Positions 8,262 through 53,667 of a stretch of DNA of 64,000 bases are shown here, in pieces. Positions within the stretch are counted from its first letter, which is position 1. Each line of letters begins with the position of its first letter. Position numbers and translations under genes: made by a program. Below the pieces are notes generated by a model. That model was not told the origin of the DNA. It saw only the letters and a list, made by a program, of their open reading frames with translations, and did not search any database. The stretch is from Desulfitibacter sp. BRH_c19 (lineage in GTDB: Bacteria; Bacillota; DSM-16504; Desulfitibacterales; Desulfitibacteraceae), in the NCBI GenBank assembly GCA_001515945.1, contig LOER01000004.1:1-64000 (forward strand), in the 5' to 3' direction.

Positions 8262-8277
8262 TGGCACAGTAATTGCT
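8262..8277 (+). promoter_or_regulatory. Sigma-54 promoter (-24/-12)
   Basis: TGGCACAGTAATTGCT matches the TGGCAC-N5-TTGCW consensus exactly, with GG and GC 10 bases apart. It lies about 85 bases before the phosphodiesterase gene at 8363. Confidence 0.8.
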
Positions 8278-12564: not shown

Positions 12565-12580
12565 TGGCACAATGTTTGCA
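12565..12580 (+). promoter_or_regulatory. Sigma-54 promoter (-24/-12)
   Basis: TGGCACAATGTTTGCA is an exact match to TGGCAC-N5-TTGCW. It lies about 90 bases before the BCCT transporter start. Confidence 0.85.
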
Positions 12581-12669: not shown

Positions 12670-14379
12670 ATGAAGGGAAATGAACATGCAGAAGGGGTTT
12701 TTAATAGAGCTTTCATACTATACAAACCTGGGAGCTCAAATTACAAGAGAGGTTGGGAAAAAACGGTGGATAAATCTAAGCTGAGTCAATATGCAAAAAT
12801 TAATCCTATAGTTTTTTATGGTGGCGTAATCTTTTGTGTTATTTTCTATGGACCTATGTTGGTTCTTCGTGAGCAGTTGCAACCACTTGGGGCACAAGTT
12901 CTAAGAGCAGTAACGTATAGTTTCGATTGGTTATGGTTATTGTTAGCTTTTGGGTGTTTTATATTCTTAGTATGGCTAGCCTTTGGCCGATATGGCAATG
13001 TAAAGTTGGGTGGGCCAGATGATAGTCCGGAATTTTCAAGATTTAGTTGGTTATCAATGCTTTTTACAGGTGGGGTCGGAGCAGGCCTTGTTTACTGGTC
13101 CATGGCTGAACCGATTTTCTATCTTAAGTGGCCTCCATTTTGGGGCGAAGCTTTTTCGGCTCAAGCTGCTCAATTTGCTATTGCCTATGGAGTATTTCAT
13201 TGGGGTGTTTTAGCTTGGGGTCTATTTACTCCTGGAGCAATTGCATTTGCTTATATGATATATGTGAGGAAGAAGCCATATTTCTATCCCAGTTACGCAT
13301 GTAGGGGAGTATTAGGGAATGTAGTTGACGGTTGGGTTGGAACTGCAATTAATTTGTTTGTTATTGTTGGACTAGTTGGTGGTTTGGGAACAACCATGGG
13401 CGTAGTTATTCCTATGATTTCAGAGGTAATTGCTCATATGATAGGTGTTGAAAATACCTTGATGGTTAAAAGTGGCACAGCAGTTTTATTGTCTGTAATC
13501 TTTGGATATAGTGCATATTCAGGTTTGCGTGGTGGAATTAAGAAATTATCAGAGCTAAATAGTTGGCTGTGCTTTGGATTGTTGGGCTTTGTATTAATAG
13601 CAGGCCCCACACTTTGGATGTTGTCATTTTATGTTGATAGCATAGGAGTTTTACTGGATAATTTCTTGCGTATGAGTTTATATACTGACCCAATAACCAA
13701 GTCTGGATTTCCTCAAGACTGGACAGTATTTTATTGGGCGTGGTGGGTTGCATGGGCAATATACTTTGGATTATTCATTGCTAGGATTTCAAAGGGACGT
13801 ACAATTAAAGATGTTATCTTGAATATGGCTTTTACAACAACTTTGGGATGTTCTATATTCTTCTTGGTGTTTGGAGGGTACGCAGTAGATCTTCAACTTA
13901 ACCAAGGGTTAGAACTTGATGCAGTTTTGGCTGCATCAGGTGGTGGAGCTATGATAGTGGCTGTATTGGAAAGCTTACCGTTTAGTGGTATAGTAATACC
14001 ATTTTTCGTCTTAGTAATGCTAATCTTCCAAGCGACTACCATAGACTCAAATGCATATACCATTGCAATGATTTCCTGTAATGAGATTAAATACAACCAG
14101 GAGCCTCCACGTTGGGCAAGACTATTCTGGTGCTTCCTGCTTTGTGTTATTGGAATTGCTATAATGTCGGTTGGCGGACTTCAGATTGTACAACTCTCTT
14201 CAGTGGCAACTAGTGTACCTATTGTGTTTATTATAGTTATCCTAATGCTATCCGTAATGAAATGGCTTAAGGAAGATTTTGGAGATGCTGTTGGACCTAA
14301 GATACTTACAATAGATTATACTGAAAGTAAAAATGCTCCAAAGACAGTTATCGATGATAAAATTACTAAAAATATATAA
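12670..14379 (+). CDS. BCCT-family betaine/carnitine/choline transporter
   Basis: A 569-residue membrane protein with about 12 spans. It has the BCCT core TGGVGAGLVYWSMAEP in the glycine-rich third/fourth-span region and the aromatic signature YWAWWVAWAIYFGLFIARIS later. The family takes up trimethylammonium compounds such as glycine betaine, choline and carnitine by Na+ or H+ symport, or by exchange. The ATG at 12670 has only a close AAGGGA; a downstream GTG within the first 40 codons cannot be excluded. It has its own sigma-54 promoter, and the Pyl-containing MttB gene follows. It is the probable entry route for the amine or its precursor. Confidence 0.93.
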   Translation: MKGNEHAEGVFNRAFILYKPGSSNYKRGWEKTVDKSKLSQYAKINPIVFYGGVIFCVIFYGPMLVLREQLQPLGAQVLRAVTYSFDWLWLLLAFGCFIFLVWLAFGRYGNVKLGGPDDSPEFSRFSWLSMLFTGGVGAGLVYWSMAEPIFYLKWPPFWGEAFSAQAAQFAIAYGVFHWGVLAWGLFTPGAIAFAYMIYVRKKPYFYPSYACRGVLGNVVDGWVGTAINLFVIVGLVGGLGTTMGVVIPMISEVIAHMIGVENTLMVKSGTAVLLSVIFGYSAYSGLRGGIKKLSELNSWLCFGLLGFVLIAGPTLWMLSFYVDSIGVLLDNFLRMSLYTDPITKSGFPQDWTVFYWAWWVAWAIYFGLFIARISKGRTIKDVILNMAFTTTLGCSIFFLVFGGYAVDLQLNQGLELDAVLAASGGGAMIVAVLESLPFSGIVIPFFVLVMLIFQATTIDSNAYTIAMISCNEIKYNQEPPRWARLFWCFLLCVIGIAIMSVGGLQIVQLSSVATSVPIVFIIVILMLSVMKWLKEDFGDAVGPKILTIDYTESKNAPKTVIDDKITKNI

Positions 14380-14401
14380 AATACAATAATTTGGGCATGT
14401 T

Positions 14402-14448
14402 AAGCAGGCATTGGAAAAGAAGGAATTTACTCCTATGCCTGCTTTTTA
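14402..14448 (+). terminator. Terminator after the BCCT gene
   Basis: AAGCAGGCAT pairs with ATGCCTGCTT and is followed by a T run. Confidence 0.75.
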
Positions 14449-14519
14449 TATTGGTAAGTTCAAACCTTGGCTTAAGTCACATATACTCAAAAACAAGTTA
14501 AAAAAACTTATTTCCATGA

Positions 14520-14657
14520 TTAATAAAGGGCTTTTCCAAGCTTAAAGAACCTTATGAGTATCAAAAAACGATTAAAACTATTGTAAATAAAGAAATCCAT
14601 GAAAATCTACAACAAACTGGTATGGAATTTGCAAAATACAATTACCATGAAGTATGA
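14520..14657 (+). other. Short open frame without a start, possible gene remnant
   Basis: In the 370-base gap before the Pyl-type MttB gene, 45 codons stay open after a TGA, reading KLKEPYEYQKTIKTIVNKEI and on to a TGA at 14655. No start codon or ribosome site was found, and I do not recognise the protein. It may be the tail of a lost gene or chance. The candidate sigma-54 site at 14618 lies inside it. Confidence 0.25.
14618..14633 (+). promoter_or_regulatory. Candidate sigma-54 promoter (-24/-12)
   Basis: TGGTATGGAATTTGCA keeps GG and GC at the right 10-base spacing, with TTTGCA at -12, but has TAT instead of CAC at -24. It lies about 115 bases before the TTG start of the MttB gene at 14750. 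Weaker than the other sites. Confidence 0.55.
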
Positions 14658-14749
14658 TAAGGATTTCAATGAAGGAGGCAGAAAGGATAAGCTAAATTAA
14701 TACTAACCGTTATGTAATATCCAAATCTAAAGATAAGGAGGAGATTTAT

Positions 14750-16228
14750 TTGGCTAGAAAGTTTTACGCTGCTTCAGATTTTATTAGTGGTTTTGGATTA
14801 AAAATGTTTTCAGAGGATGAACTCTATTCCATCCACTTAGCGACTCTTGAAGTTTTACAGAAATCAGGTATAAAAGTTGAAAGCGAGGAAGCATTAGAAA
14901 TATTTCAAGCTGGAGGAGCATTCGTTGATAAGAATACTCGTATAGTGCAGTTTCCCCCGTACCTTGTGGAGGATGCTATTCATTCAGCACCTAGCAAGAT
15001 AGTTTTAGCTGGAAGAAACCCCAAGCATGATGTGGTAATTGAAGATAAGAGAGTTCATTTCACCAATTTCGGTGAAGGAATTATGGTAATTGACCCATTT
15101 ACCGGGGAATACCGAAAATCAATTAAACAAGATACGGCAAATGCTGCTTTAATGTGTGATGCTCTTGATGAGGTGGACATTTGCTTAAGAGCAGTAGCGG
15201 CCCATGATGTTTCCGCAAAGGTTCATCCATTACATGAGTTAGAGGCTTGCTTTAAAAATACAACAAAACACATTTTCACAGGCGGCATTAGTGGTAGACA
15301 AGCTGAAATACTATTTGATATGGCAGCAACAGTTGTTGGAGGAAAAGATAAACTAAGAGAACGCCCTATCCTTTCAATTAATGTTTGCCCTACTAGCCCA
15401 TTACAGCTTACTAGCCATTGTACTGAAGCAATAATCAAATGTGCAGAATATGGAATTGCCTGTAATATTCTTTCGATGGCAATGGCAGGTGGATCCGCGC
15501 CTGTAACTCTAGGTGGTACTTTGGTTATGCATAATGCAGAAGTCTTAGCTGGTGTAGTTTTAAGTCAGTTAACACGTAAAGGGTCACCTGTTATTTATGG
15601 AAGCTCCACTACAATAATGGATCTCAGGACCACAACAGCACCTGTTGGTGCCCCTGAATTAGGCATGATAAATGCAGCTGTAGCAAGGTTGGCTCAATAC
15701 TATCTATTGCCAAGTTGGGTAGCTGGCGGATAGGCTGATAGTAAAGTTCCTGATGCTCAATCTGCTCATGAAAAAACTATGTCTACTCTGTTAACTGCAT
15801 TGGCAGGTGCCAATATTATCTACGGAGTTGGAATGCTAGAACTCGGAATTACCTTTAGCTTTGAGCAGTTTGTAATGGATAACGATATAATTAAAATGGT
15901 AAATAAGGTTGTGCAGGGTATAGATATCAATGATGAAACTCTAGCTGTAGATGTCATTAAGCAGGTAGGTGCCGGCGGAGACTTCTTAATGCAAGAGCAT
16001 ACCATGAAGCATATGAGAACTGCACAGTCTAGTCCGAAATTAATGAATCGCAAAATGAAGCATTCTTGGGTAGAAACTGGTTCTAAGAATCTAACTGAGG
16101 TAGCCCGTGAAGAAGCTATTAATATTCTGGAAAATCATAAACCAGAGCCACTTATGGCAGATATAGCCTCAAAATTAGCAGATATTATTGAAGCAGCCGA
16201 AGAAGAATTTGGCGTTAATAAAAAATAG
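14750..16228 (+). CDS. mttB: Trimethylamine methyltransferase MttB, pyrrolysine-containing (in-frame amber codon)
   Basis: MttB moves a methyl group from trimethylamine to its cognate corrinoid protein, using pyrrolysine encoded by UAG. This frame starts at TTG 14750 after a strong AAGGAGGAG and runs to a TAG at 15731-15733 (codon 328). It then continues in the same frame without gap to TAA at 16228, giving 492 residues, the normal MttB length. Around the TAG the protein reads WVAGG-[TAG]-ADSKVPDAQ. In four paralogues in the window the same column holds Met, Val, Thr or Val inside (T/S)G(G)x-(S/T)(D/E)(S/A)K. Sequence is well conserved on both sides and no frame shift is needed, so UAG is read through rather than being a mutation. 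The reading needs tRNA-Pyl and PylS, which are not in the window. No corrinoid protein gene is adjacent. Confidence 0.93.
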
Positions 16229-16245
16229 TTTAGCTTTAACGTTGT

Positions 16246-16280
16246 AATAAGCTCTCCGTATGTGGGAGCTTATTATTTTA
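16246..16280 (+). terminator. Terminator after the Pyl-type mttB
   Basis: AATAAGCTC pairs exactly with GAGCTTATT and is followed by TTTTA. Confidence 0.65.
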
Positions 16281-16292
16281 TATAGACTTGTT

Positions 16293-16338
16293 GTTCAATA
16301 AATTAACAATATATTGAACGTTATAAATCTGATATAAT
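16293..16338 (+). promoter_or_regulatory. Inverted repeat and -10 box before the sigma-54 activator gene
   Basis: GTTCAATA (16293-16300) and TATTGAAC (16312-16319) form an exact inverted repeat with an 11-base spacer. TATAAT (16333-16338) follows as a likely -10 box of a housekeeping promoter. The repeat may be an autoregulatory operator. Confidence 0.4.
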
Positions 16339-16374
16339 AAAGATATTATTAAGAAGATGGTATGGTGATCTGAC

Positions 16375-17988
16375 ATGGTTGAAAAGATAAGCTCTCCGAA
16401 TGGTATTATTTTAGTTGATGAAAAAGGGCAAGTTATTTTCTGTGATGAAAATGCGCAAGGCCTATTACCCGATCAACAACTCTTGGGTAAGCAGATTGAT
16501 ATTGTTATTGAAAATATGGATAATAAAAATATTACTTTTCAAATGACAAATCTAATTCGGAATGCTAATTTCAAGAATGATTTGAAATGTTACCTGTTCT
16601 ATTGTAGCGAGCCAATCCCTGAGTCAGATGAGATGAATCTGGAAAAGCTTCAGGAAATATTAAATAATTCATACGATGAAATTTTTGTGGTCAATAGTAA
16701 AGGTATTGTAACCTATGTTAACAATGCTAGTGAAAGAAATTATGGTCTAAAGCCATCTGAAATCATTGGAAAAACAGTTTATCATCTTGTGGAAGAGGGC
16801 TACTACAGCCCATCAATAGCTCCTGTGGTTTTTAAAGAAAAAAAGAGGGTTACCCTTACACAGGAAACAATGATCGGTAAGAAACTAGTTGTTACTGCTA
16901 CTCCAATCCTAGATGGAGAAGGTAATATAGACTTGGTTGTAATGAATACTCGAGATATAACTGAAATAGAAAAGCTTAAATGCAATTTAGAAGATACTGA
17001 AAAATTAGTACAAAAGTATAAGCAAGAGGTTGAGGAACTAAGAAAAAAGGAATACAAATACGAACATTTAGTAGTTCGTAGCAAAAGCATGAAGGAATGT
17101 GTTGTATTGGCACAAAAGGTTTCTTCTACGGATTCTACTGTTCTAATATTAGGTGATTCTGGAACTGGTAAGAATGTAATGGCTAAGTATATTCATCATA
17201 TAAGCAATAGAAAAAATGGACCTTTTAAAACAATTAACTGTGCAGCTATACCTGACCAATTGCTCGAATCTGAACTATTTGGCTATCATCGTGGTGCTTT
17301 TACAGGGGCTAATACCGCGGGAAAAGTTGGACTTCTGGAATTATCTGATGGTGGTACATTATTTTTAGATGAAATAGCTGAGATACCACTAAGACTGCAA
17401 GCAAAACTTCTAGAGGTAATCCAAGAGAATAGATTTGTACCAGTTGGTGGTACAGAGTATAAAAATATTGACATAAGAATAATTGCAGCTACCAATAGGG
17501 ATTTAGAAAAAATGGTTAGAGATGGATTATTTAGAGAAGATTTATACTATAGAATAAATGTAATTGAACTAGAAATACCACCCTTACGGGACAGACTTGA
17601 GGATATAGTCTTCCTAGCGCATTATTTTCTAAACATATATGATAAAAAATATGGCATGTCCCATTATTTTTCCCAAGATAGTCTAGATACATTAATTACT
17701 CATTCATGGTCAGGAAATGTACGTGAATTACAACACGTTGTTGAGAGGTTAGTGATAACTGTTAAGGAATCAAAGATACTACCAGAGCATTTCCCCAAAA
17801 GCTTCAGTAAAAGCGATAAAGCTAAAGCTAATTTAGCATTGCCTAATCTTGTTCCATTAGATGTGCTAGAGGAAGAATTAATTATCAAGGCTTATAAACA
17901 ATTGGGAAGCTCATATAAGGTTGCAAAAGCGCTAAATATTAGTCAAAGTAAAGCAAATAGGCGCATCCGCCGATATCTAAATAAATAA
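16375..17988 (+). CDS. Sigma-54-dependent activator with PAS domains
   Basis: A 537-residue enhancer-binding protein. It has an N-terminal PAS-like segment (1-85), a clear PAS domain (about 90-200) with a coiled linker (200-228), and an AAA+ domain. The AAA+ domain carries Walker A GDSGTGKN (260-267), the sigma-54 loop GAFTGA (307-312) and Walker B GGTLFLDE (326-333). A Fis-type helix-turn-helix follows (about 505-535). Such proteins open sigma-54 promoters when their sensor domain binds a signal. It follows the Pyl-type mttB and precedes another MttB gene, both preceded by sigma-54-like sites. A methylated amine, or the redox/corrinoid state, is a plausible cue, by inference. Confidence 0.92.
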   Translation: MVEKISSPNGIILVDEKGQVIFCDENAQGLLPDQQLLGKQIDIVIENMDNKNITFQMTNLIRNANFKNDLKCYLFYCSEPIPESDEMNLEKLQEILNNSYDEIFVVNSKGIVTYVNNASERNYGLKPSEIIGKTVYHLVEEGYYSPSIAPVVFKEKKRVTLTQETMIGKKLVVTATPILDGEGNIDLVVMNTRDITEIEKLKCNLEDTEKLVQKYKQEVEELRKKEYKYEHLVVRSKSMKECVVLAQKVSSTDSTVLILGDSGTGKNVMAKYIHHISNRKNGPFKTINCAAIPDQLLESELFGYHRGAFTGANTAGKVGLLELSDGGTLFLDEIAEIPLRLQAKLLEVIQENRFVPVGGTEYKNIDIRIIAATNRDLEKMVRDGLFREDLYYRINVIELEIPPLRDRLEDIVFLAHYFLNIYDKKYGMSHYFSQDSLDTLITHSWSGNVRELQHVVERLVITVKESKILPEHFPKSFSKSDKAKANLALPNLVPLDVLEEELIIKAYKQLGSSYKVAKALNISQSKANRRIRRYLNK

Positions 17989-18000
17989 TCTAAAAATATG

Positions 18001-18032
18001 GGGGAACACTAAGTGTTCTCCTATTTATTTTG
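18001..18032 (+). terminator. Terminator after the PAS/sigma-54 activator gene
   Basis: GGGGAACACT pairs with AGTGTTCTCC, followed by a T-rich stretch. Confidence 0.65.
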
Positions 18033-18154
18033 TTCTAGATGCTAAACTATATTTCGCTATCAATTTAAATCTAAATGACTTACAATAACCCGTATGGACT
18101 TAGAATTAGCTTTGCAAAGACAGCTATATAGGCTTTTATATAGATATTATTAAA

Positions 18155-18170
18155 TGGCATAGTCCTTGCA
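18155..18170 (+). promoter_or_regulatory. Sigma-54 promoter (-24/-12)
   Basis: TGGCATAGTCCTTGCA matches the consensus except T for C at one position. It lies about 60 bases before the MttB-family gene at 18232. A perfect CTTTGCAAAG palindrome sits just upstream at about 18110. Confidence 0.8.
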
Positions 18171-18231
18171 TCAGATTAAAGATAATGTTCGAAGTTACAA
18201 AATTATTTAGTTCAACGCTATGGAGGGGATT

Positions 18232-19647
18232 ATGATGTTAAAGACCAAATTAGAGGTTATTTCTAAAGAGGATTTTCAAATGATACATGATGCATCAATA
18301 AAGATACTAGAAGAGACTGGTGTGGCTTTTCATTGCGAGGAAGCATTGGAAATATGCAGGTCTCATGGTGCAAAGATTTTAGGTAATACTGTGTATTTTA
18401 CTAGGAAGATGGTAGAGGAAGCTATAGAGAATTGTCCAGAGACTTTTACTTGGACAGCGAGAAACATGGACAAGTCAGTAACAGTGGGTGAGGGCTTTCT
18501 TATTCAACCAAACTTGGGACCAGTATATATTCAAGATTTGGACAAGGGTAGGCGTGTAGGTACATTAGAGGATTTTGGCAACATTCAGAAGCTTTGCCAG
18601 CATAGTGATGTGGTTCATCTTGTGGGATCTATACCTGTAAATCCAAGTGATATCTCACAGGATGAAAAGCACCTACACATGATATATGAAACTGTACGAA
18701 ACTCAGATAAACCAATTATTGGACATACTGGATATAGGCATGAAGCCCAGCAAACATTGGATATGATTGAAATTGCTTTAGGAACGAAATTAAATAATGG
18801 GCATTATGCAGCGGTGGCTATTAATCCACTTAGTCCATTGGGCTATTCCCAGGATGCTTTGGAAACCATCATAGAATATGCAAAACGTAATCAAATAGTA
18901 TTTTTGGCTCCATGTATAATGGCAGGTGTGTCTGGGCCTATAACTCTATTAGGAACAGCTGTATTACAAAATGTTGAGATATTAGCTGGTCTAACCTTAA
19001 TACAATTAATAAATCCAGGTAATCCAGTTTTGTACTCAATTGCATCAAATACTGCTTATATGAAAACAGGTAGCTTTATCGGAGGTAACCCTGAAGGTTT
19101 GTTGATGGATATAATTAACTTGCAAATGGGTATGGACTATTATAAGGTTCCCACTAGAATATTATCAGGTGTAACTGACTCAAAGGTTGTAGATTGTCAA
19201 GCTGGATATGAAACCATGCAAAATCTTATGATGGGTGTATTGGGCGGTGGTCATATTGTTGTACAGTGCATGGGTGTTCTAGATGCTATTATGACTACTT
19301 CTTATGAGAAATTTATAATTGATGAAGAATTGATTCAAAGAATGGTGCGTATTAAACAAGGTGTGGAGATATCAGAAGAGGCATTAGCGATAGAAGCAAT
19401 TCAAGAAATTGGACATTCTGGATCCTATTTAACTCACCAAAGTACTTTTGAGAAATTTCGTAGTAGATGGATGCCAACAGTTTCCGGTTGCGAGTCCTAT
19501 ATGGATTGGGTAGCAGCGGGATCAGAGGATGTGGTAATCAGGGCAAATCGGAAATATAAAGAAATACTAAGCAATGCCCCTGAAACTTTATTAGATTCAG
19601 AAATAGACAAGGAAATACGAAGATACATGGAAACAGCTAAAGGATAG
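18232..19647 (+). CDS. MttB-family methyltransferase (non-Pyl)
   Basis: A full-length MttB-superfamily protein of 471 residues. At the pyrrolysine column it has Val (LSGV-TDSKVVDCQAGYE), so it belongs to the non-Pyl MtgB-like group whose members demethylate quaternary amines. It is the most divergent of the five copies in the window: the loop reads RILSGV instead of the MY(S/A/G)TGG of its relatives, and the C-terminal block is GHSGSYLTHQSTFEKFR. The start at 18232 follows GGAGGGG; an ATG at 18220 overlaps that ribosome site. The gene stands alone between a sigma-54 promoter and a strong terminator, and is flanked by two sigma-54 activator genes. The substrate is unknown. Confidence 0.9.
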   Translation: MMLKTKLEVISKEDFQMIHDASIKILEETGVAFHCEEALEICRSHGAKILGNTVYFTRKMVEEAIENCPETFTWTARNMDKSVTVGEGFLIQPNLGPVYIQDLDKGRRVGTLEDFGNIQKLCQHSDVVHLVGSIPVNPSDISQDEKHLHMIYETVRNSDKPIIGHTGYRHEAQQTLDMIEIALGTKLNNGHYAAVAINPLSPLGYSQDALETIIEYAKRNQIVFLAPCIMAGVSGPITLLGTAVLQNVEILAGLTLIQLINPGNPVLYSIASNTAYMKTGSFIGGNPEGLLMDIINLQMGMDYYKVPTRILSGVTDSKVVDCQAGYETMQNLMMGVLGGGHIVVQCMGVLDAIMTTSYEKFIIDEELIQRMVRIKQGVEISEEALAIEAIQEIGHSGSYLTHQSTFEKFRSRWMPTVSGCESYMDWVAAGSEDVVIRANRKYKEILSNAPETLLDSEIDKEIRRYMETAKG

Positions 19648-19790: not shown

Positions 19791-21584
19791 TTGTCTGAAT
19801 TGAGAGGTATTCAAGATTTTGTTCAAGACATAGCTGAGGCAATTAGTGCGGCCCTTGATATGGGTGTGGAAATAATAGACTCCCATTTATTAAGAATTGC
19901 AGGTACTGGGGAATCCAAGGAAAAGATTGGTACAAAAATGGCTATGGGACATATCTGCAGACATGCACTATTATGCAAAAAACCCTTTATCCTTGTGGAA
20001 CCAGGAAAAGATCAGATCTGTGAAATATGTCACCTGTATAGTAATTGTGATATTATAAAAGCTGGTTTTTTTATGCCAATCCAATTGGAGGGTATGCCAG
20101 TAGGATTAATTAATCTTGTGGCTTTTACAGATGAGCAAAAAATCCGACTGTTAAATCAAGAACAAACACTATTGCAATATGTTGCAAAAATGTCTGAATT
20201 ATTGTCCAGTAAAATAGCGGAAAATCGCAGTACAAAACAGTTAAGAATAACTGCAGAATTTCTGAAAACAATAATTAATTCTATAGACATAGGAGTAATT
20301 GGGGTGAATGCGGAGGGATACATAGCACAAATAAATCAATCCGCAGGAGATATTCTTGGTTTGCCGTGGCAAGAATTAAGGGGTAGCAGTATTAATACTG
20401 TTTTATCTAAATCTCCCCTTTGTAAAATTATTTTAAAACAGGAGATAGACCAAGAGCAGGTGATTACCTATCAAATTGGGGAAAAACGGGTGAGAGTTTT
20501 AAGTTACTTTTATCCTGTATATAGTGATGGAATTTTAACTGGAGCCTTTGAAGCATTTTACCGTCTGTCTGATGTTCAAAGAAAGGCAGAAAGATGGGCA
20601 GGTACTGAATATCAATCTACCCTTTCAGAAATCATCGGGGATAGTGAAATTATTAAAGATGTAAAAGAAAGAGTACTACAGGTTGCCCAAGGTAGCTCTA
20701 CAGTTTTGATACAGGGAGAAAGTGGTACTGGTAAAGAGCTCTTTGCTCGAGCAATTCATGCTGCTAGTCCGAGGGCAAATAAACCCCTTAAAATTATTAA
20801 TTGTAGCGCCATACCTGATAACCTTCTGGAAAGTGAACTCTTTGGTTATGATGAAGGTGCTTTTACAGGGGCAAAGCATGGTGGTAAAATTGGTAAATTT
20901 GAATTAGCTGATGGAGGTACGGTTTTTCTAGATGAGCTTGGGGAGTTGCCTCTCTATTTACAAGCAAAACTATTACGAGTTTTACAAAACCGAACCATCG
21001 AAAGGGTGGGAGGTAATAGCGAAATAAAAATTGATGTGAGAATTGTTGCAGCAACTAATAGGGATATTGAGAAAATGGTTGCTGATGGACAATTTAGAGA
21101 GGATTTATATTATAGGCTTAATGTTATACCTTTATATATCCCCCCTCTTCGTGCAAGAAGAGATGATATATCTCTTTTGGTCGACTATTTTATCTATAAA
21201 TATAATGAATTTCTTAAGAAAACAATTAAGACAATTCACCCTGAAGCTTTGGAAATTTTGAAGCTGTATAACTGGCCTGGAAATGTACGGGAATTGGAAA
21301 ACGCAATTGAATATGCTTGTAATTTCGAGCAAAGCAATCTAATTATGCCAGCAAGTTTACCACTACGCATACTTAGAAGCGTTAAAGGAGAAGAAATTGT
21401 CCAAGAAAAATTAGATTTGAAATGCCATGTGCGAGAAGTAGAGAAAAAGATCATTATGAAAGCCATTTTACTGCATGGTGGTTCGTTAAAAGAGAAGGAG
21501 CTTATTGCTAATGAATTAGGTATAAGTGTACCAAGCTTATATAGAAAACTCAAAGACTATAATATTAAACTTAATAATAGTTAA
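19791..21584 (+). CDS. Sigma-54-dependent activator with Cys-rich sensory domain
   Basis: A 597-residue enhancer-binding protein. The N-terminal domain (about 1-140) carries a cysteine cluster, C56, C62, C77, C80 and C86, in HICRHALLC and CEICHLYSNC. This resembles PocR/GAF-like sensors, which may bind a metal, a cofactor or a small ligand. A PAS domain (about 155-265) and the AAA+ domain follow: Walker A GESGTGKE (309-316), GAFTGA (356-361) and Walker B GGTVFLDE (375-382). The protein ends with a Fis-type helix-turn-helix (SVPSLYRKLKD). The start is TTG 19791 with a modest GGGTG site. It probably drives the MttB operon starting at 21752 and perhaps other sigma-54 genes here. Confidence 0.92.
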   Translation: MSELRGIQDFVQDIAEAISAALDMGVEIIDSHLLRIAGTGESKEKIGTKMAMGHICRHALLCKKPFILVEPGKDQICEICHLYSNCDIIKAGFFMPIQLEGMPVGLINLVAFTDEQKIRLLNQEQTLLQYVAKMSELLSSKIAENRSTKQLRITAEFLKTIINSIDIGVIGVNAEGYIAQINQSAGDILGLPWQELRGSSINTVLSKSPLCKIILKQEIDQEQVITYQIGEKRVRVLSYFYPVYSDGILTGAFEAFYRLSDVQRKAERWAGTEYQSTLSEIIGDSEIIKDVKERVLQVAQGSSTVLIQGESGTGKELFARAIHAASPRANKPLKIINCSAIPDNLLESELFGYDEGAFTGAKHGGKIGKFELADGGTVFLDELGELPLYLQAKLLRVLQNRTIERVGGNSEIKIDVRIVAATNRDIEKMVADGQFREDLYYRLNVIPLYIPPLRARRDDISLLVDYFIYKYNEFLKKTIKTIHPEALEILKLYNWPGNVRELENAIEYACNFEQSNLIMPASLPLRILRSVKGEEIVQEKLDLKCHVREVEKKIIMKAILLHGGSLKEKELIANELGISVPSLYRKLKDYNIKLNNS

Positions 21585-21695: not shown

Positions 21696-21751
21696 TATTA
21701 CTTATTAATAGAAGTAAATAGTGTGACTTCAAGATGAAAAGGAGAAGTGTG

Positions 21752-23203
21752 ATGACATTTTACGGCTATCCAAGTGGATTCTATAAACCTTTATCACTCA
21801 AGGAAGTTGAGAAGATACATAACACGTCACTTAGAATACTAGAAGAAGTAGGCTTTATGGTGGATAACAAAAGGGCTCTAGTTGTTCTTGAAAAAATAGG
21901 TTGTAAAGTGGACTATCTAAATAAAATTGTAAGAGTTGAACCAGATGTGCTTATGAGAACAATAAAAAAGGCTCCCGCTCGAATCACCCTATATGGTAGG
22001 GATGAAAAAAATAATCTTGTAATTGAAGCAAATAGAACCTATTACAGTAATGGTGGAACAGCTATTAAGACAATTGATGTAGAAACAGGAGAACGTAGAG
22101 ATTCCACTCTTGAAGATATATCCCAAATTTGCAAATTAATAGATTATTTAAATAATATACATATGATAATGCTTCCTGTATATCCGGGAGGAATAGAAAC
22201 CAATGAAGTAGATGTTAATCGTTTTTTTAATGCATTGAATAACTCCACTAAACATGTTATGGGAGGTATTTATCATGAAGATGGTGCCAAGGATGTAATT
22301 AAAATGGCACAAATATTAGCTGGTGGAGAAGAAGAATTTCGAAAAAGACCAATTCTAACCTTTATAACCTGTCTCTTAAGTCCCTTAAAGATGGAACATA
22401 ATTATGTCAACTTTATGTTCGATGCAGCAGATGCTGGTGTTCCAGTAGTTACGTCAGTATGTCCTATTTCAGGGTTAACTGCTCCCATGACGCTCGCAGG
22501 ACAGTTGGCGCAATTAAATGCAGAGGCATTGAGTGGAATTCTTTTGCTTCAGGCAATTAACAATGGCACCCCTGTATTTTATAGTGTAGTACCAACTATT
22601 GCTGATATGCGCTCCATGGGATTTTTATTTGGAGCAGTAGAAAGTGGTATTATGAACGCAGCTTGTGCACAACTTGCATCCTATTATAATATTCCCATGT
22701 ATTCAACAGGAGGTGTATCTGAATCCAAGGTTGGTGATGCTCAATCAGGCTATGAAAAGGCTATGGGTAGCTTAATGCCAGCATTGGCAGGTGCTCAATT
22801 AATCCATGATGCAGCAGGACTTCTAGAGGGTAGCATCTGTTTTAGTTTAGAACAGTTAGTTATAGATGATGAAATAAATGGTATGGCACTAAGGGCTACA
22901 AGGGGTATAGAAGTAAATGATGATACATTAGCCTATGAAACCATTAAAAGTGTAGGTCCAGGTGGTAATTACCTTGCACAAGGGCATACGGTTAAACACA
23001 TGAGAACTGAAACCTTTTTTCCAAAGGTTGCTAATAGAAATATATACACAGATTGGGTTAAAGATGGAAGTAAAAATTCATGGCAGAGAGCAAATGAAAT
23101 TGCACGAGAAGCTTTAGCTAATCATCAAGTGCAACCTTTTGAATCAGAGAAGATTTTACATGTTAAAAGTGAGTTTCCCTATCTAAGAGAAATAAAAGCC
23201 TAA
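21752..23203 (+). CDS. MttB-family methyltransferase (non-Pyl)
   Basis: A 483-residue MttB-superfamily protein with Val at the pyrrolysine column (YSTGGV-SESKVGDAQSGYEK). Other conserved blocks are APARITLYGRDEKN, TKHVMGGI and GPGGNYLAQGHTVKHMR. The start at 21752 has AGGAG with 7-base spacing; the ATG at 21734 lies upstream of that ribosome site. It is the first gene of a two-gene operon with the closely similar gene at 23231. The paralogue pair may act on two related betaines or form a mixed complex. Members of this branch include MtgB (glycine betaine), MtcB (carnitine) and MtpB (proline betaine); which applies cannot be decided by eye. Confidence 0.92.
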   Translation: MTFYGYPSGFYKPLSLKEVEKIHNTSLRILEEVGFMVDNKRALVVLEKIGCKVDYLNKIVRVEPDVLMRTIKKAPARITLYGRDEKNNLVIEANRTYYSNGGTAIKTIDVETGERRDSTLEDISQICKLIDYLNNIHMIMLPVYPGGIETNEVDVNRFFNALNNSTKHVMGGIYHEDGAKDVIKMAQILAGGEEEFRKRPILTFITCLLSPLKMEHNYVNFMFDAADAGVPVVTSVCPISGLTAPMTLAGQLAQLNAEALSGILLLQAINNGTPVFYSVVPTIADMRSMGFLFGAVESGIMNAACAQLASYYNIPMYSTGGVSESKVGDAQSGYEKAMGSLMPALAGAQLIHDAAGLLEGSICFSLEQLVIDDEINGMALRATRGIEVNDDTLAYETIKSVGPGGNYLAQGHTVKHMRTETFFPKVANRNIYTDWVKDGSKNSWQRANEIAREALANHQVQPFESEKILHVKSEFPYLREIKA

Positions 23204-23230: not shown

Positions 23231-24664
23231 ATGTACTTTGGTACAGCAAGTGGATACTACCAACCTGTATCTATCAAAGAAATTGAAATAATTCACAACG
23301 CTGCAATGCATGTATTTGAAAAAGTAGGAATTGAAGTTGATCATGAAAGGGCTCTGAAACTATTTGCAGAAAATGGAGCTCAGGTAGATTTTATCAACAA
23401 AAGGGTAAGGGCTTCAGAAAAGTGGATAATTGAAAAGATTAAAATGGCTCCAGCAAGAGTAATTTTATATGGTCGAGAGGATAAACATCATCTTGTAGTA
23501 GAGCCTGGGAGAACCTTTCTTGGAAGTGGTGGAAGTGCTGTGGGTATCCTAGACTATGAAAGTGGGGTTCGTAGGCCTACTACTTTAGATGATTTAAAAA
23601 CAATTGCTAAGCTTTGTCATAGCTTGGACAATATACATTGGTTTGTACTGCCAGTATATCCTAATGATGTTTCTAATGAGGATGTTGATGTTAATAGGTT
23701 CTTTGCAGGGCTTAATAATACTACTAAGCATATCATGGGTGGTGTATTTGGGCCTGAAGGTGCGAAAAAAGTTGTGCAAATGGCACAGCTTCTAGCAGGA
23801 GGAGCAAAGGAACTAAAAGCTAAACCTAACATATCAATTACTTGCTCCATAATGAGTCCCCTTAAGATGGAGAAGAATTATGTGGAGCATATGTTTGAAG
23901 TAGTTCAGGCTGGTGTACCTTTAGTCACATCATGTGCGCCTATAAGTGGTGCTACTGCACCCATGACTCTTGCTGGAACATTAGTACAATTAAATGTTGA
24001 AGCATTAAGTGGCATTCTTTTAGCCCAGTTAATCAATCCGGCTTCTCCTGTTCTTTATAGTGTAGTTCCTACTACAGCAGATATGAGAACCATGAACTTT
24101 TTATTTGGTGCAGTAGAAAACGGTATTATGAATAGCGTTTGTGCCCAACTTGCATCCTTCTATAATCTTCCTATGTATGCTACTGGAGGTACAACAGAAG
24201 CAAAGGTCCCTGATGCTCAAGCGGGTTATGAAAAGGCAACCACAATTTTAATGCCAGCCTTAGCTGGTGCGCAACTGATACATGAATCGGCTGGCCTTAT
24301 TGATAGTGGAATGACAGTATCTCTTGAGCAATATGTTATTGATAATGAAATCAATGGGATGGTCATGCGGGCCGTGAGAGGCTTAGATATTAATGAAGAT
24401 AGATTAGCATTAGAAGTTATTGAAGCAATTGGGCCTGGTGGTAATTACCTCACACACCCACATACTTTAAAATATATGCGAAGTGAAACTTTTATGCCTG
24501 ATGTTGCTGCAAGAATGAGCTATAACATTTGGAAGGAAAATGGCTGTAAAGATGTTGGGCAAGTTGCTAGAGAACGAGTAGGCAAATATTTTAAGGAAAG
24601 CACAGATGTAGCATATAATGAAGAAATTATTAAAGAAATAAAAAAGGAGTATCCACATATTTAA
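23231..24664 (+). CDS. MttB-family methyltransferase (non-Pyl)
   Basis: A 477-residue MttB-superfamily protein, closely related to the gene just upstream (27-base gap) and without its own promoter. Thr occupies the pyrrolysine column (YATGGT-TEAKVPDAQAGYEK). Shared blocks are APARVILYGREDKH, TKHIMGGV and GPGGNYLTHPHTLKYMR. The ribosome site is AAGGAG, 8 bases before the ATG. With its partner it probably encodes quaternary-amine demethylation. The corrinoid protein that would accept the methyl group is not encoded nearby. Confidence 0.92.
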   Translation: MYFGTASGYYQPVSIKEIEIIHNAAMHVFEKVGIEVDHERALKLFAENGAQVDFINKRVRASEKWIIEKIKMAPARVILYGREDKHHLVVEPGRTFLGSGGSAVGILDYESGVRRPTTLDDLKTIAKLCHSLDNIHWFVLPVYPNDVSNEDVDVNRFFAGLNNTTKHIMGGVFGPEGAKKVVQMAQLLAGGAKELKAKPNISITCSIMSPLKMEKNYVEHMFEVVQAGVPLVTSCAPISGATAPMTLAGTLVQLNVEALSGILLAQLINPASPVLYSVVPTTADMRTMNFLFGAVENGIMNSVCAQLASFYNLPMYATGGTTEAKVPDAQAGYEKATTILMPALAGAQLIHESAGLIDSGMTVSLEQYVIDNEINGMVMRAVRGLDINEDRLALEVIEAIGPGGNYLTHPHTLKYMRSETFMPDVAARMSYNIWKENGCKDVGQVARERVGKYFKESTDVAYNEEIIKEIKKEYPHI

Positions 24665-49410: not shown

Positions 49411-51138
49411 ATGGAGCTAAAGTCTCAAGAACTTAGGAAAAAAGGGTGGGAAATTGATCCGCTAAGATTAGCTATGGATTGGACTGAGGATGATTTAGAT
49501 AAGCCACAGATTCTCATAGAATCAACCTTTGGGCATAGTCATCCAGGTAGTTTTCACCTGGATAAGTTGGTTGATTATGCTTCAACAGGTATATTAGAAA
49601 GCGGAGGTAAGCCATCTGTTTTTTATGTTACAGATATCTGCGATGGAATAGCTCAAGGCCATGATGGTATGAACTATTCTCTGTTATCAAGGGAATTAAT
49701 TGCTGGAATGGTGGAAGTTCATGTCAAATCAAATGTTGTTGATGCATGCATTTTCATTTCGTCCTGTGACAAGTCAGTACCTGCCCATCTAATGGCTGCT
49801 GCTAGATTAGATAGGTCCATCATCCATATTCCTGGTGGCACTATGACAGCTGGTCCTGACAATTTAACTTTAGAACAGACAGCAACCTATGGTGCTTTAA
49901 AGGAACAAAATAAGATATCAGAAAAGGAATACAAGTATTATCAAAAGGAGGCGTGCCCTACATGTGGTGCTTGTCAGTTTATGGGAACTGCTAGTACCAT
50001 GCAGGTAATGTCTGAAGCATTAGGGCTAGCTTTACCGGGTACAGCTTTAATGCCAGTTGCTTTAAATGCACAAAAGTATGCTGTTAGACAGGCTGCTCGC
50101 CAAATTATGAGTCTCCTAGAAGGTAAGATAACTACAAGAATGATACTAACTGAAAAGGCTTTTTATAATGCATTAATGATACATGCCGCAATAGGTGGGT
50201 CAACTAATGCATTATTACACATGCCAGCAATAGCAAAGGAAGCAGGCATTTCAATTAAGCCCGAAACATTTAATGAAATCAATCAGAAAATACCATATAT
50301 AGTTAATGTTCGGCCTTCAGGTCAACATGCTACCGAATACTTTTGGTATGCAGGAGGTGTCCCGGCAGTAATGCTTGCACTACGGGATTATCTTTACTTG
50401 GATGTTCTCACCGTGACAGGCAAGACAGTGGGAGAGAATCTGGAAATGATTGAGGAAACAGGCTTTATTGAGAAGAACAATGCTTATTTAAGAAAATATT
50501 GTTTAAAACCGGAAGATATTATTAGACCAATAGAAAACCCAATAAATGCAAAGGGATCAGTTGCAATTCTTACTGGAAACCTGGCACCAGAAGGTTCTGT
50601 AGTAAAACATATTGCCATTGCAGCAGAAATGAAAAAACATAGGGGACCAGCAAGACCTTTTGACTCTGAAGAGGCAGCCCAAGAGGCTATCAGAACTGGA
50701 AGCATCAAACCAGGGGATGTGTTGATTATCAGATATGAAGGTCCCCAGGGTGCAGGTATGCCAGAGATGTTTTATACAACTGAAGCACTAGCTTCGGATG
50801 AAAAACTGGTTTCTACTACTGCCTTAATTACCGACGGACGTTTTTCGGGGGCAACTAGGGGTCCGGCTATAGGGCATGTGTCACCAGAAGCTCTTGCTGG
50901 TGGACCAATAGCTTTGGTTGAGGAAAACGATATTATAGAAATAGATATTGAAAATAATTCATTAAATATAGTAGGTGTTTCTGGTCAAATTAAGACATTA
51001 AAAGAAATTGAAGTTATTCTTAGTGATCGCAAGGCTAAGTGGCAGCCTCCTGATATAAAACACACCGGTATCCTAGATGTCTTTAGGAAATTAGCTGCAT
51101 CTCCCATGAACGGCGCATATTTCGATACGAATAAATAG
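49411..51138 (+). CDS. IlvD/Edd-family dehydratase (sugar-acid type)
   Basis: A 575-residue [Fe-S] dehydratase of the dihydroxyacid/phosphogluconate/aldonate group. Cluster Cys residues are in TDICDGIAQGHDG, FISSCDKSVPAHLMAA and CPTCGACQFMGTAST. The ending TDGRFSGATRGPAIGHVSPEA is the family C-terminal signature. It differs from true IlvD by an extended N-terminus, and a second dehydratase lies at 59499. With KDG kinase and KDPG aldolase further on, it probably turns an aldonic acid into a 2-keto-3-deoxy acid. It begins the sugar-acid region; AAGGAGG precedes the ATG. Confidence 0.88.
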   Translation: MELKSQELRKKGWEIDPLRLAMDWTEDDLDKPQILIESTFGHSHPGSFHLDKLVDYASTGILESGGKPSVFYVTDICDGIAQGHDGMNYSLLSRELIAGMVEVHVKSNVVDACIFISSCDKSVPAHLMAAARLDRSIIHIPGGTMTAGPDNLTLEQTATYGALKEQNKISEKEYKYYQKEACPTCGACQFMGTASTMQVMSEALGLALPGTALMPVALNAQKYAVRQAARQIMSLLEGKITTRMILTEKAFYNALMIHAAIGGSTNALLHMPAIAKEAGISIKPETFNEINQKIPYIVNVRPSGQHATEYFWYAGGVPAVMLALRDYLYLDVLTVTGKTVGENLEMIEETGFIEKNNAYLRKYCLKPEDIIRPIENPINAKGSVAILTGNLAPEGSVVKHIAIAAEMKKHRGPARPFDSEEAAQEAIRTGSIKPGDVLIIRYEGPQGAGMPEMFYTTEALASDEKLVSTTALITDGRFSGATRGPAIGHVSPEALAGGPIALVEENDIIEIDIENNSLNIVGVSGQIKTLKEIEVILSDRKAKWQPPDIKHTGILDVFRKLAASPMNGAYFDTNK

Positions 51139-51168
51139 GACACGAATGTATTCAGGGAGGAAATTATA

Positions 51169-52467
51169 ATGATTAATAATGTCGACGTGAAAATTGAAGG
51201 TGGCTATGATATAGAGCTACCTAAGTTAGTTCCAATACAACAAAAATTTAAAGCACATAAATTAGAAAATATTCCTATGGCCGTTGATCTAGAGTTTTCT
51301 AAAGAGGCAGTAAAAAAATCTATAAAACCAGGTAGTAGAATAGCAATAGCTGTGGGAAGTCGTGGAATTGTAAATTTGGAAGAGATAGTTAAGCAAACGG
51401 TACTAAACCTGAAAAAACTTGGCGCAAAGCCCATAATTATTCCTGCGATGGGAAGTCATGGGGGTGCTACAGCTGAGGGCCAGATTAAGGTGATTAAAGA
51501 GTATGGCATTACTGAAGAAAGGATTGGTGCTCCAATAGTATCCTCAATGGAAACGGTAAAAATAGCTGAAACTGAGCATGGAGTTCCTGTTTATTTTGAC
51601 AAAAATGCCTATCAAAGTGATGGAATTATTGTAATAAATCGCATAAAGCCCCATACAGACTTTAAGGGATCTTTTGAAAGTGGACTTATGAAAATGTTGG
51701 TAATTGGTCTAGGTAAACACAAGGGCGCTTCCTATATTCATAACATGGGATTTAAGCAATTCAACACTATAATACCTGAAGTGGGGAAACAGATTTTAAA
51801 AAAGACAAATATATTATTTGGAATGGCAATCTTAGAGAATGCTTGTGATGAAACTGCTAGGCTTGAGGCAGTTCCTGCAGATACTTTGTTTATAAGAGAG
51901 CCTGAGTTGTTGAAAGAAGCAAAGTCTTACATGGGTTATTTAATACCTAGAAACTTTGATGTTCTTTTAATTGAACAAATAGGCAAGGACATTAGCGGAG
52001 CAGGTATGGATCCAAACATAGTAGGAAGGCCAGGTTCTGGTTTGCCAGGTTTTGATGGACCTTCCTTCCAAAAGCTAGTTGTATTGGACTTGACAGAGAA
52101 AACAAAAGGTAATGCATGTGGCATAGGCATGGCTGATATTACTACAAAGAGTCTAGTTGAAAAAATAGATTTTACTTATCTCTATACAAATTCAATAACA
52201 TCTACAGTTCTAGACCCTGCAAAGTTGCCAATAGCCATGAATACTGAGAAGGAAGCTTTGGTTATTGCACTATGGACCAGTAACATGGTAAAAATACCTG
52301 ATGCCAAGGTTGTATTCATTAAAAATACATTAGAACTAAGTAAAATCTTAGTCTCTGAGCCACTTTTAAATGACATTAAGGATAAGGATATTGAAGTTCT
52401 TGGGAAGGAACAAGCAATTCTCTTTGATGCTAATGGACGATTGCAATTAAGACCTTCACAGCTATAA
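51169..52467 (+). CDS. LarA-like protein (nickel-dependent racemase/epimerase family)
   Basis: A 432-residue protein of the LarA/DUF2088 family. Family signs are AVGSRGI, PAMGSHGGATAEGQ (His equivalent to LarA His108) and NRIKPHTDFKGSFESGLMK (second His, followed by the Lys region that anchors the nickel-pincer nucleotide). The spacing after the second His differs from the classical H-x9-K, so I am not sure the covalent Lys is kept. Known relatives include lactate and malate racemases and a D-gluconate 2-epimerase. It lies directly between a sugar-acid dehydratase and a TRAP transporter, with larB and larC 4.5 kb upstream. A sugar-acid epimerase is the best guess. Confidence 0.78.
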   Translation: MINNVDVKIEGGYDIELPKLVPIQQKFKAHKLENIPMAVDLEFSKEAVKKSIKPGSRIAIAVGSRGIVNLEEIVKQTVLNLKKLGAKPIIIPAMGSHGGATAEGQIKVIKEYGITEERIGAPIVSSMETVKIAETEHGVPVYFDKNAYQSDGIIVINRIKPHTDFKGSFESGLMKMLVIGLGKHKGASYIHNMGFKQFNTIIPEVGKQILKKTNILFGMAILENACDETARLEAVPADTLFIREPELLKEAKSYMGYLIPRNFDVLLIEQIGKDISGAGMDPNIVGRPGSGLPGFDGPSFQKLVVLDLTEKTKGNACGIGMADITTKSLVEKIDFTYLYTNSITSTVLDPAKLPIAMNTEKEALVIALWTSNMVKIPDAKVVFIKNTLELSKILVSEPLLNDIKDKDIEVLGKEQAILFDANGRLQLRPSQL

Positions 52468-52602: not shown

Positions 52603-53667
52603 ATGAAATCTTTTAAATTAAGAGGGTTGCTATTACTGGTAGTTATGTTGATTATGGCAGTTGCTTTAGTTGGATGTGGAGGAGCAGCAAACGATAATGA
52701 AGGAAATGCTGAACCAAATGAGGAGCCTCAAGCTAAAGAAGTTAAAACTATCAGAATTAGTAATGGTATCAATGATGCACACCCAACGTACTTATCGGGT
52801 CTTGAATTTGAAAAATTTGTAGAATCAAAAACAGATGCTTTTGATGTTGAAGTATATCATAGTGGGCAACTAGGTGATGACAGAATAGCTATGGAAGCTT
52901 TACAATTAGGAACATTGGAAATGGTTATTACATCAACTTCACCGTTAGCAAACTTTATACCAGAATATATGATTTTTGACTTTCCATTTATCTTTGCTGA
53001 TGGTCAGGTTGCAGACTTTGTTTTAGACGGTCCATTTGGTGACACCATGTTAGATATGCTTCCAGCCCAAGGTTTAATTGGTTTGGGATTCCAGGAAAAT
53101 GGGTTCCGTAACTTGACGAACAGCAGACACGCAGTAGCTGGTGTAGAAGACCTTGATGGTTTAAAAATCAGAACTATGGAAAACAAAGTTCACTTAGATG
53201 CATGGAGAGCCTTAGGTGCAAACCCAACTCCAATGGCATTTACTGAATTATTCACAGCTATGCAGCAGGGAACTGTTGATGGTCAGGAAAATCCACTAAT
53301 CACTATTGAACTTTCAAAGTTCTATGAAGTACAAGATCACGTTTCACTTACTAACCATGTCTATACACCATTTGTAATGCTAATTAGTAAGATTTTCTGG
53401 GATGATTTAAGTGCTGAAGAGCAGCAAATTCTTCAAGAAGCGGCAGATCATGCCAATGCTTGGCAAAGAGACGAAATTAGAAGACAAGAGCAAAATAGCG
53501 TAGAGGTTCTAAAAGAAAATGGTATGACTGTAACTACTTTGTCTGATGAAGCTAGAGCTGAGTTTCAAGCTGCTGTACTTCCAACTATAGAAAAATATAG
53601 TGAAGAAGTTGGAGAAGAGTTAGTTGCACAAATGTTTGAACAGATTGAATTAGCTGGTCAGCAGTAA
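52603..53667 (+). CDS. dctP: TRAP transporter substrate-binding lipoprotein (DctP family)
   Basis: A 354-residue extracytosolic binding protein with lipobox ALVGC (Cys25) and an acidic linker. The DctP fold is seen in DAHPTYLSGLEFEKFVE, SGQLGDDRIAMEALQLGTLEM, the carboxylate-binding Arg in GLKIRTME, and the QQGTVDGQENPL block. It delivers a carboxylate, probably a sugar acid here, to the two membrane subunits that follow. A strong terminator after it probably keeps this subunit more abundant than DctQ and DctM. Confidence 0.92.
   Translation: MKSFKLRGLLLLVVMLIMAVALVGCGGAANDNEGNAEPNEEPQAKEVKTIRISNGINDAHPTYLSGLEFEKFVESKTDAFDVEVYHSGQLGDDRIAMEALQLGTLEMVITSTSPLANFIPEYMIFDFPFIFADGQVADFVLDGPFGDTMLDMLPAQGLIGLGFQENGFRNLTNSRHAVAGVEDLDGLKIRTMENKVHLDAWRALGANPTPMAFTELFTAMQQGTVDGQENPLITIELSKFYEVQDHVSLTNHVYTPFVMLISKIFWDDLSAEEQQILQEAADHANAWQRDEIRRQEQNSVEVLKENGMTVTTLSDEARAEFQAAVLPTIEKYSEEVGEELVAQMFEQIELAGQQ

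Follow-up and report, generated by a model that had tools for sequence, protein, structure and literature searches.

The mttB gene of the window (the whole stretch of 64,000 nucleotides analysed here, from Desulfitibacter sp. BRH_c19, with a G+C content of 36.9%) carries an in-frame TAG, which raises the question of whether this codon specifies pyrrolysine (Pyl), the rare 22nd amino acid, is read as an ordinary amino acid or is a nonsense mutation, and of which substrate the product would act on. A sequence-only reading had placed the TAG at codon 328 of 492. Translation of 14750-16228 on the forward strand gave 327 codons, the TAG, 164 open codons and a terminal TAG in a single frame, so that this placement proved exact to the base and the frame continues past the TAG without a shift, as had been claimed. 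The prediction that automated annotation would split the gene was also borne out, since the list of open reading frames under translation table 11 gives 14750-15733 and 15779-16228 separately. The TTG start codon is credible because the Shine-Dalgarno sequence AAGGAGGAG lies just upstream and the syntenic orthologue in a congeneric genome (G002) has an ATG at the equivalent residue (MARKFYAAS). The G+C content of the window lies below the 43.2% reported for the D. formicoaceticum genome (PMC6778437), a difference that argues against that species as the source. The features of the locus are collected in Table 1.

Table 1. Features of the Pyl-type mttB gene and its surroundings in the window (all on the forward strand, as marked)
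Feature	Position	Strand	Basis
Non-Pyl MttB-superfamily protein, C-terminal part, Met at the site, truncated at the contig end	4..558	+	PF06253; translation
BCCT-family transporter; separate sigma-54-type site 12565-12580	12670..14379	+	TIGR00842, 430 bits, above cut-off
Sigma-54-type (-24/-12) promoter site TGGTATGGAATTTGCA, 132 bases 5' of the Pyl-mttB start codon	14618..14633	+	Motif match; sites in orthologues
Shine-Dalgarno sequence AAGGAGGAG before Pyl-mttB	14736..14744	+	Sequence
mttB (Pyl type), TTG start, TAG end, 492 codons including the read-through codon 328	14750..16228	+	TIGR02369 match; 48% identity to M. barkeri MttB
Pyrrolysine codon 328, in-frame TAG, matching Pyl334 in M. barkeri MttB	15731..15733	+	Translation; alignment
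Terminal TAG of Pyl-mttB, acting as stop	16226..16228	+	Translation; orthologues end alike
Stem-loop followed by T-rich sequence	16243..16283	+	Fold z-score -3.66 for 16226-16290
PrdR-like sigma-54-dependent activator	16375..17988	+	NF041552, 420 bits, below cut-off of 795
Non-Pyl MttB-superfamily protein, MtgB-like, Val at the site; sigma-54-type site 18155-18170	18220..19647	+	318 bits against chains 2qne/9yce (glycine betaine methyltransferase)
Second PrdR-like sigma-54-dependent activator	19791..21584	+	NF041552, 415 bits, below cut-off
Non-Pyl MttB-superfamily protein, Val at the site	21734..23203	+	Family match; alignment
Non-Pyl MttB-superfamily protein, Thr at the site	23231..24664	+	Family match; alignment

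The readthrough protein scored 762 bits for TIGR02369, the family of Pyl-containing trimethylamine methyltransferases, whose cut-off is 525; the match is full-length and spans residues 15-484 of the protein and positions 1-469 of the model. Its nearest solved relative is the MttB of M. barkeri (452 bits, with 259 bits for MtgB). In the alignment, codon 328 corresponds to residue 334 of the M. barkeri MttB chain, which is pyrrolysine in the crystal structure (PMC9842639), and the earlier assertion that the TAG occupies the known pyrrolysine position of MttB thus holds. Gly110 and Tyr364 have been reported to be fully conserved across Pyl-MttBs (PMC9842639); both are kept in the window protein, as are M249 and G372. 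Residue 111 is Glu, compared with Thr in M. barkeri MttB, and Glu is also found in many bacterial Pyl-MttBs. Membership among the MtgB or other non-Pyl MttB proteins was ruled out by the TAG at the site, by the greater closeness to 7xcm than to 2qne and by a position inside the clade of TAG-bearing sequences. In the four paralogues of the window, the column of the TAG holds Met (4-558, partial), Val (18220), Val (21734) and Thr (23231). These are the residues given in the sequence-only reading, which had also placed them all in a GG context; that detail needs a small correction, since the paralogue at 18220 has SG ahead of the site.

Were the TAG a nonsense mutation, the gene would be a pseudogene whose product is only the 327-residue fragment, a view for which the splitting of the gene by standard gene calling, the intact release factor 1 (RF1) and the ordinary use of TAG as a stop in this genome can be cited. 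The distribution of the codon argues against it. Among the 40 MttB-family matches in the genome, seven full-length genes have an internal TAG, every one at the same column, and the TAG is kept in the orthologues of the congener (91% identity), of a Clostridia MAG (89%) and of 'Candidatus Formimonas warabiya' DCMF (75%); because seven MttB TAGs share one column and the codon persists in orthologues of 75-91% identity, its presence at codon 328 is not due to chance. The segment past the TAG, with its 164 codons open, has a dN/dS of 0.12 against the orthologue of the congener, the ratio being applied to the downstream part of close pairs only, as dS reaches saturation upstream and between distant pairs. 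Judged by this substitution pattern, the part of the gene beyond the TAG is under purifying selection. Together with the complete pyl gene set described below, these observations make a pseudogene highly improbable.

The association of the TAG with this branch of the family extends beyond the genome. A tree built from 69 proteins places every true TAG sequence, also the archaeal MttB, on one side of a branch with a support of 100/96. A survey of 61 genomes found a TAG-bearing TIGR02369 gene in six, five of which have PylSc above the cut-off; the sixth genome is 80% complete, and its PylB lies 340 bases from mttB, at a contig end. The genome of strain BRH_c19 also has five MtbB genes with one TAG each, all in the motif GL*xG. 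A TAA noted as an internal stop in the MttB gene of L018 was rejected, as its position is upstream of the start of that gene. Many contigs end within MttB or MtmB genes (C4, C6, C13, C14, C28, C30, C39, and C43); the assembly probably broke at near-identical copies, which would make the count of MttB and MtmB genes approximate. Four MtmB-family matches, two of them partial, have no in-frame TAG (G000 C42:37254-38603, C34:154191-155525, C42:55183-56094, and C13:17-847), and TIGR02370 corrinoid genes are close to several MtmB-family matches (C42:38772, C34:155636, and C13:1014). An MtmB homologue that lacks Pyl now goes by the name MtqB (PMC13044021).

The sequence-only reading had made the presence of pyl genes the test of its claim, and the genome (3.85 Mb in 48 contigs) contains pylT, B, C, D, Sn and Sc, the full set, on a single contig (C22, locus L032). 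PylS is usually split into PylSn and PylSc in bacteria. The genes occupy L032 8069-12573 as two converging blocks, with pylT-B-C-Sn on one strand and pylSc-D on the other, and pylB, C, D and Sc have the same layout in the congener (L103). In a profile search, each of the five proteins scored above its curated NCBIfam cut-off: PylB with 498 bits, PylC with 445 bits, PylD with 262 bits, PylSn with 131 bits (TIGR03912, cut-off 51) and PylSc with 352 bits (TIGR02367, cut-off 178). The tRNA-Pyl with its CUA anticodon is located at L032 8069-8141 and is predicted to fold into a cloverleaf-like structure with CUA within the anticodon loop. Reading of UAG-328 by a near-cognate tRNA or another suppressor, with insertion of an ordinary amino acid, would likewise keep the 3' part of the gene under selection, as any readthrough would, and nothing specific points to it. 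Against it stand a dedicated tRNA-Pyl(CUA), a synthetase for this tRNA and the complete biosynthetic route in the genome, as well as a residue that falls at the known Pyl position together with its partner residues, and we regard this explanation as having a negligible probability. The gene almost certainly encodes a trimethylamine:corrinoid methyltransferase, MttB, for which pyrrolysine at residue 328 and trimethylamine as the substrate are predicted from sequence.

The decoding of this TAG has to be reconciled with its ordinary use. In a sample made up of the window and 13 further stretches of the genome, 54 of 200 open reading frames ended in TAG; after subtraction of 10 Pyl codons, 44 of 190 (23%) are ordinary stops. 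The Pyl-mttB gene itself ends in TAG, as do its orthologues in the congener, the Clostridia MAG and DCMF, where the gene end reads TAG TAA in the first two and TAG in DCMF. RF1 is intact, with one open frame of 356 residues; a TAA suspected inside it was rejected, since its position is outside the gene. Because TAG is a frequent stop and RF1 is intact, both readings of TAG must coexist, and part of the product will end at residue 327. Conditional expression of the pyl genes may be the simplest explanation of this dual use; work on Acetohalobium reportedly found such conditional pyl expression, as described for other bacteria. The mRNA downstream of codon 328 contained no convincing structure that could serve as a decoding signal (fold z-score -1.12). 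In-frame TAG junctions at 49411-52467 of the window, at L034 15879 and at L061 856-1725 were considered as further readthrough sites and rejected, as translation gave separate complete genes.

We propose that, when the pyl genes are expressed, PylSn and PylSc would load tRNA-Pyl(CUA) with the pyrrolysine that PylB, C and D synthesise, and that the charged tRNA would compete with RF1 at UAG-328 to give a protein of 492 residues. If the enzyme works like its solved archaeal counterpart, trimethylamine may bind to the pyrrolysine imine, and one of its methyl groups would be passed to a corrinoid protein whose gene lies elsewhere in the genome and presumably on to tetrahydrofolate. Transcription of Pyl-mttB probably starts from a sigma-54 promoter, which may be controlled by a PrdR-like activator. 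Exact matches to the sigma-54-type motif TGGYAYRNNNNYTGCW number five in the window, compared with 0.32 expected, and lie at 8262, 12565, 14618 and 18155 on the forward strand and at 52962 on the reverse strand. Three of them are directly 5' of the BCCT carrier, Pyl-mttB and the MtgB-like gene, and all three are also present in the congener; the site before Pyl-mttB has an equivalent in the DCMF orthologue as well. The stem-loop behind the gene is probably an intrinsic transcription terminator.

This arrangement recurs. The BCCT and Pyl-mttB genes adjoin each other at six loci, namely in the window, on contigs C33, C34 and C27, in G002 and in DCMF, and an MtgB-like gene is also present at five of the six, all but C27 (the loci are L037, L038, L039, L051, L102 and window 12670-19647, with the MtgB-like partner in all but L039); outside the window, the BCCT and MtgB-like assignments are based on the resemblance of open reading frames rather than on a profile search. 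The module may be read as uptake followed by stepwise demethylation of methylated amines. There is no nearby mttC, and no corrinoid protein of the family TIGR02370 was found within the window, so the corrinoid partner must be encoded elsewhere; at the C33 locus, mttB, a corrinoid gene and mtbB are side by side. Because the window has no TIGR02370 protein and a quaternary-amine-type carrier adjoins the gene, trimethylamine as the substrate is not certain. The Pyl protein might instead act on a methylated amine imported by the BCCT carrier, or the module might supply trimethylamine from a quaternary amine, and the recurrence of the BCCT gene and its MtgB-like partner, the missing corrinoid gene nearby and the detection of Pyl-MttBs in DCMF cultures, with the suggestion of a possible new role (PMC9768040), are in favour of such a reading. 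However, the match to TIGR02369 is at the equivalog level, the pocket of Pyl334, Y364, G110 and M249 is intact, and for Bilophila, whose genomes contain BCCT carriers, a conversion of choline and glycine betaine to trimethylamine has been proposed (PMC7593587). Overall, we consider a substrate role of this kind unlikely, and trimethylamine remains the preferred assignment. Substrate differences may perhaps exist among other Pyl-MttBs of the same genome, in which the one at C34:214157-215551 (L019) has Leu in place of Tyr364 and the one at C36:138537-139946 (L011) has Ser-Lys at Gly110-Thr111, both changes falling on residues reported as invariant; these two perhaps use other substrates.

Two other genomes have a different residue at the Pyl position. 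TIGR02369 proteins above the cut-off with His (CAT) at the Pyl site are present in two genomes of one other family, at L071 (G031:C72:34886-36301) and L130/L137 (G072:C1:461025-462440). They share 75% identity with each other, keep G110, M249, Y364 and G372, and lie on the same side of the 100/96 branch as the TAG sequences, nested in the TAG clade on well-supported branches, though a grouping of the TAG genes that excludes them is only marginally disfavoured (p-AU 0.058). A search of the G031 genome for PylSc and PylB gave neither above the cut-off. The His variant of G031 adjoins apparent BCCT and corrinoid genes. It is conceivable, although we consider it quite doubtful, that the module forms a separate pathway under sigma-54 control, with a Pyl enzyme whose substrate is not free trimethylamine, and that some lineages have swapped Pyl for His and left the other pocket residues unchanged, which would give a Pyl-type methyltransferase that functions without Pyl.

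Strain BRH_c19 is a well-supported Pyl user with an unusually large set of seven MttB and five MtbB genes, and since TAG is still a common stop in its genome, it is well suited to studying how two meanings of a single codon are maintained. Standard gene calling will break up at least 12 of its catabolic genes and so conceal the methylamine metabolism, and the Pyl-to-His copies of other genomes make the dispensability of pyrrolysine in the MttB fold testable.

Compared with the M. barkeri MttB (PDB 7xcl, 7xcm, and 7xcn), the window protein shows 48% full-length identity, the same column of the Pyl codon and the residues G110, M249, Y364 and G372, and differs in having Glu111 instead of Thr, a bacterial host, no adjacent mttC and a BCCT neighbour. 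The glycine betaine methyltransferase MtgB (PDB 2qne and 9yce) belongs to the same superfamily and has the same fold, but it contains no Pyl. Bilophila, a member of a different phylum, is similar in its TAG-truncated annotation, in an mttB located apart from the pyl genes and in the multiple BCCT carriers of its genome, a likeness taken from the published description and not from a sequence comparison (PMC7593587). Another close system is that of DCMF, a different species with a larger genome (6.44 Mb vs 3.85 Mb) and 82 mttB genes vs about 40 here, in which Pyl occurs in 23 of 96 methylamine methyltransferase genes, split by annotation (PMC6778437), and seven Pyl-MttBs were detected in the proteome (PMC9768040). 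The window gene adds to this already known type of Pyl-MttB, and its novelty is low: the DCMF orthologue (75% identity) has the TAG at the same codon, BCCT upstream, an MtgB-like gene downstream, a sigma-54-type site and many paralogues.
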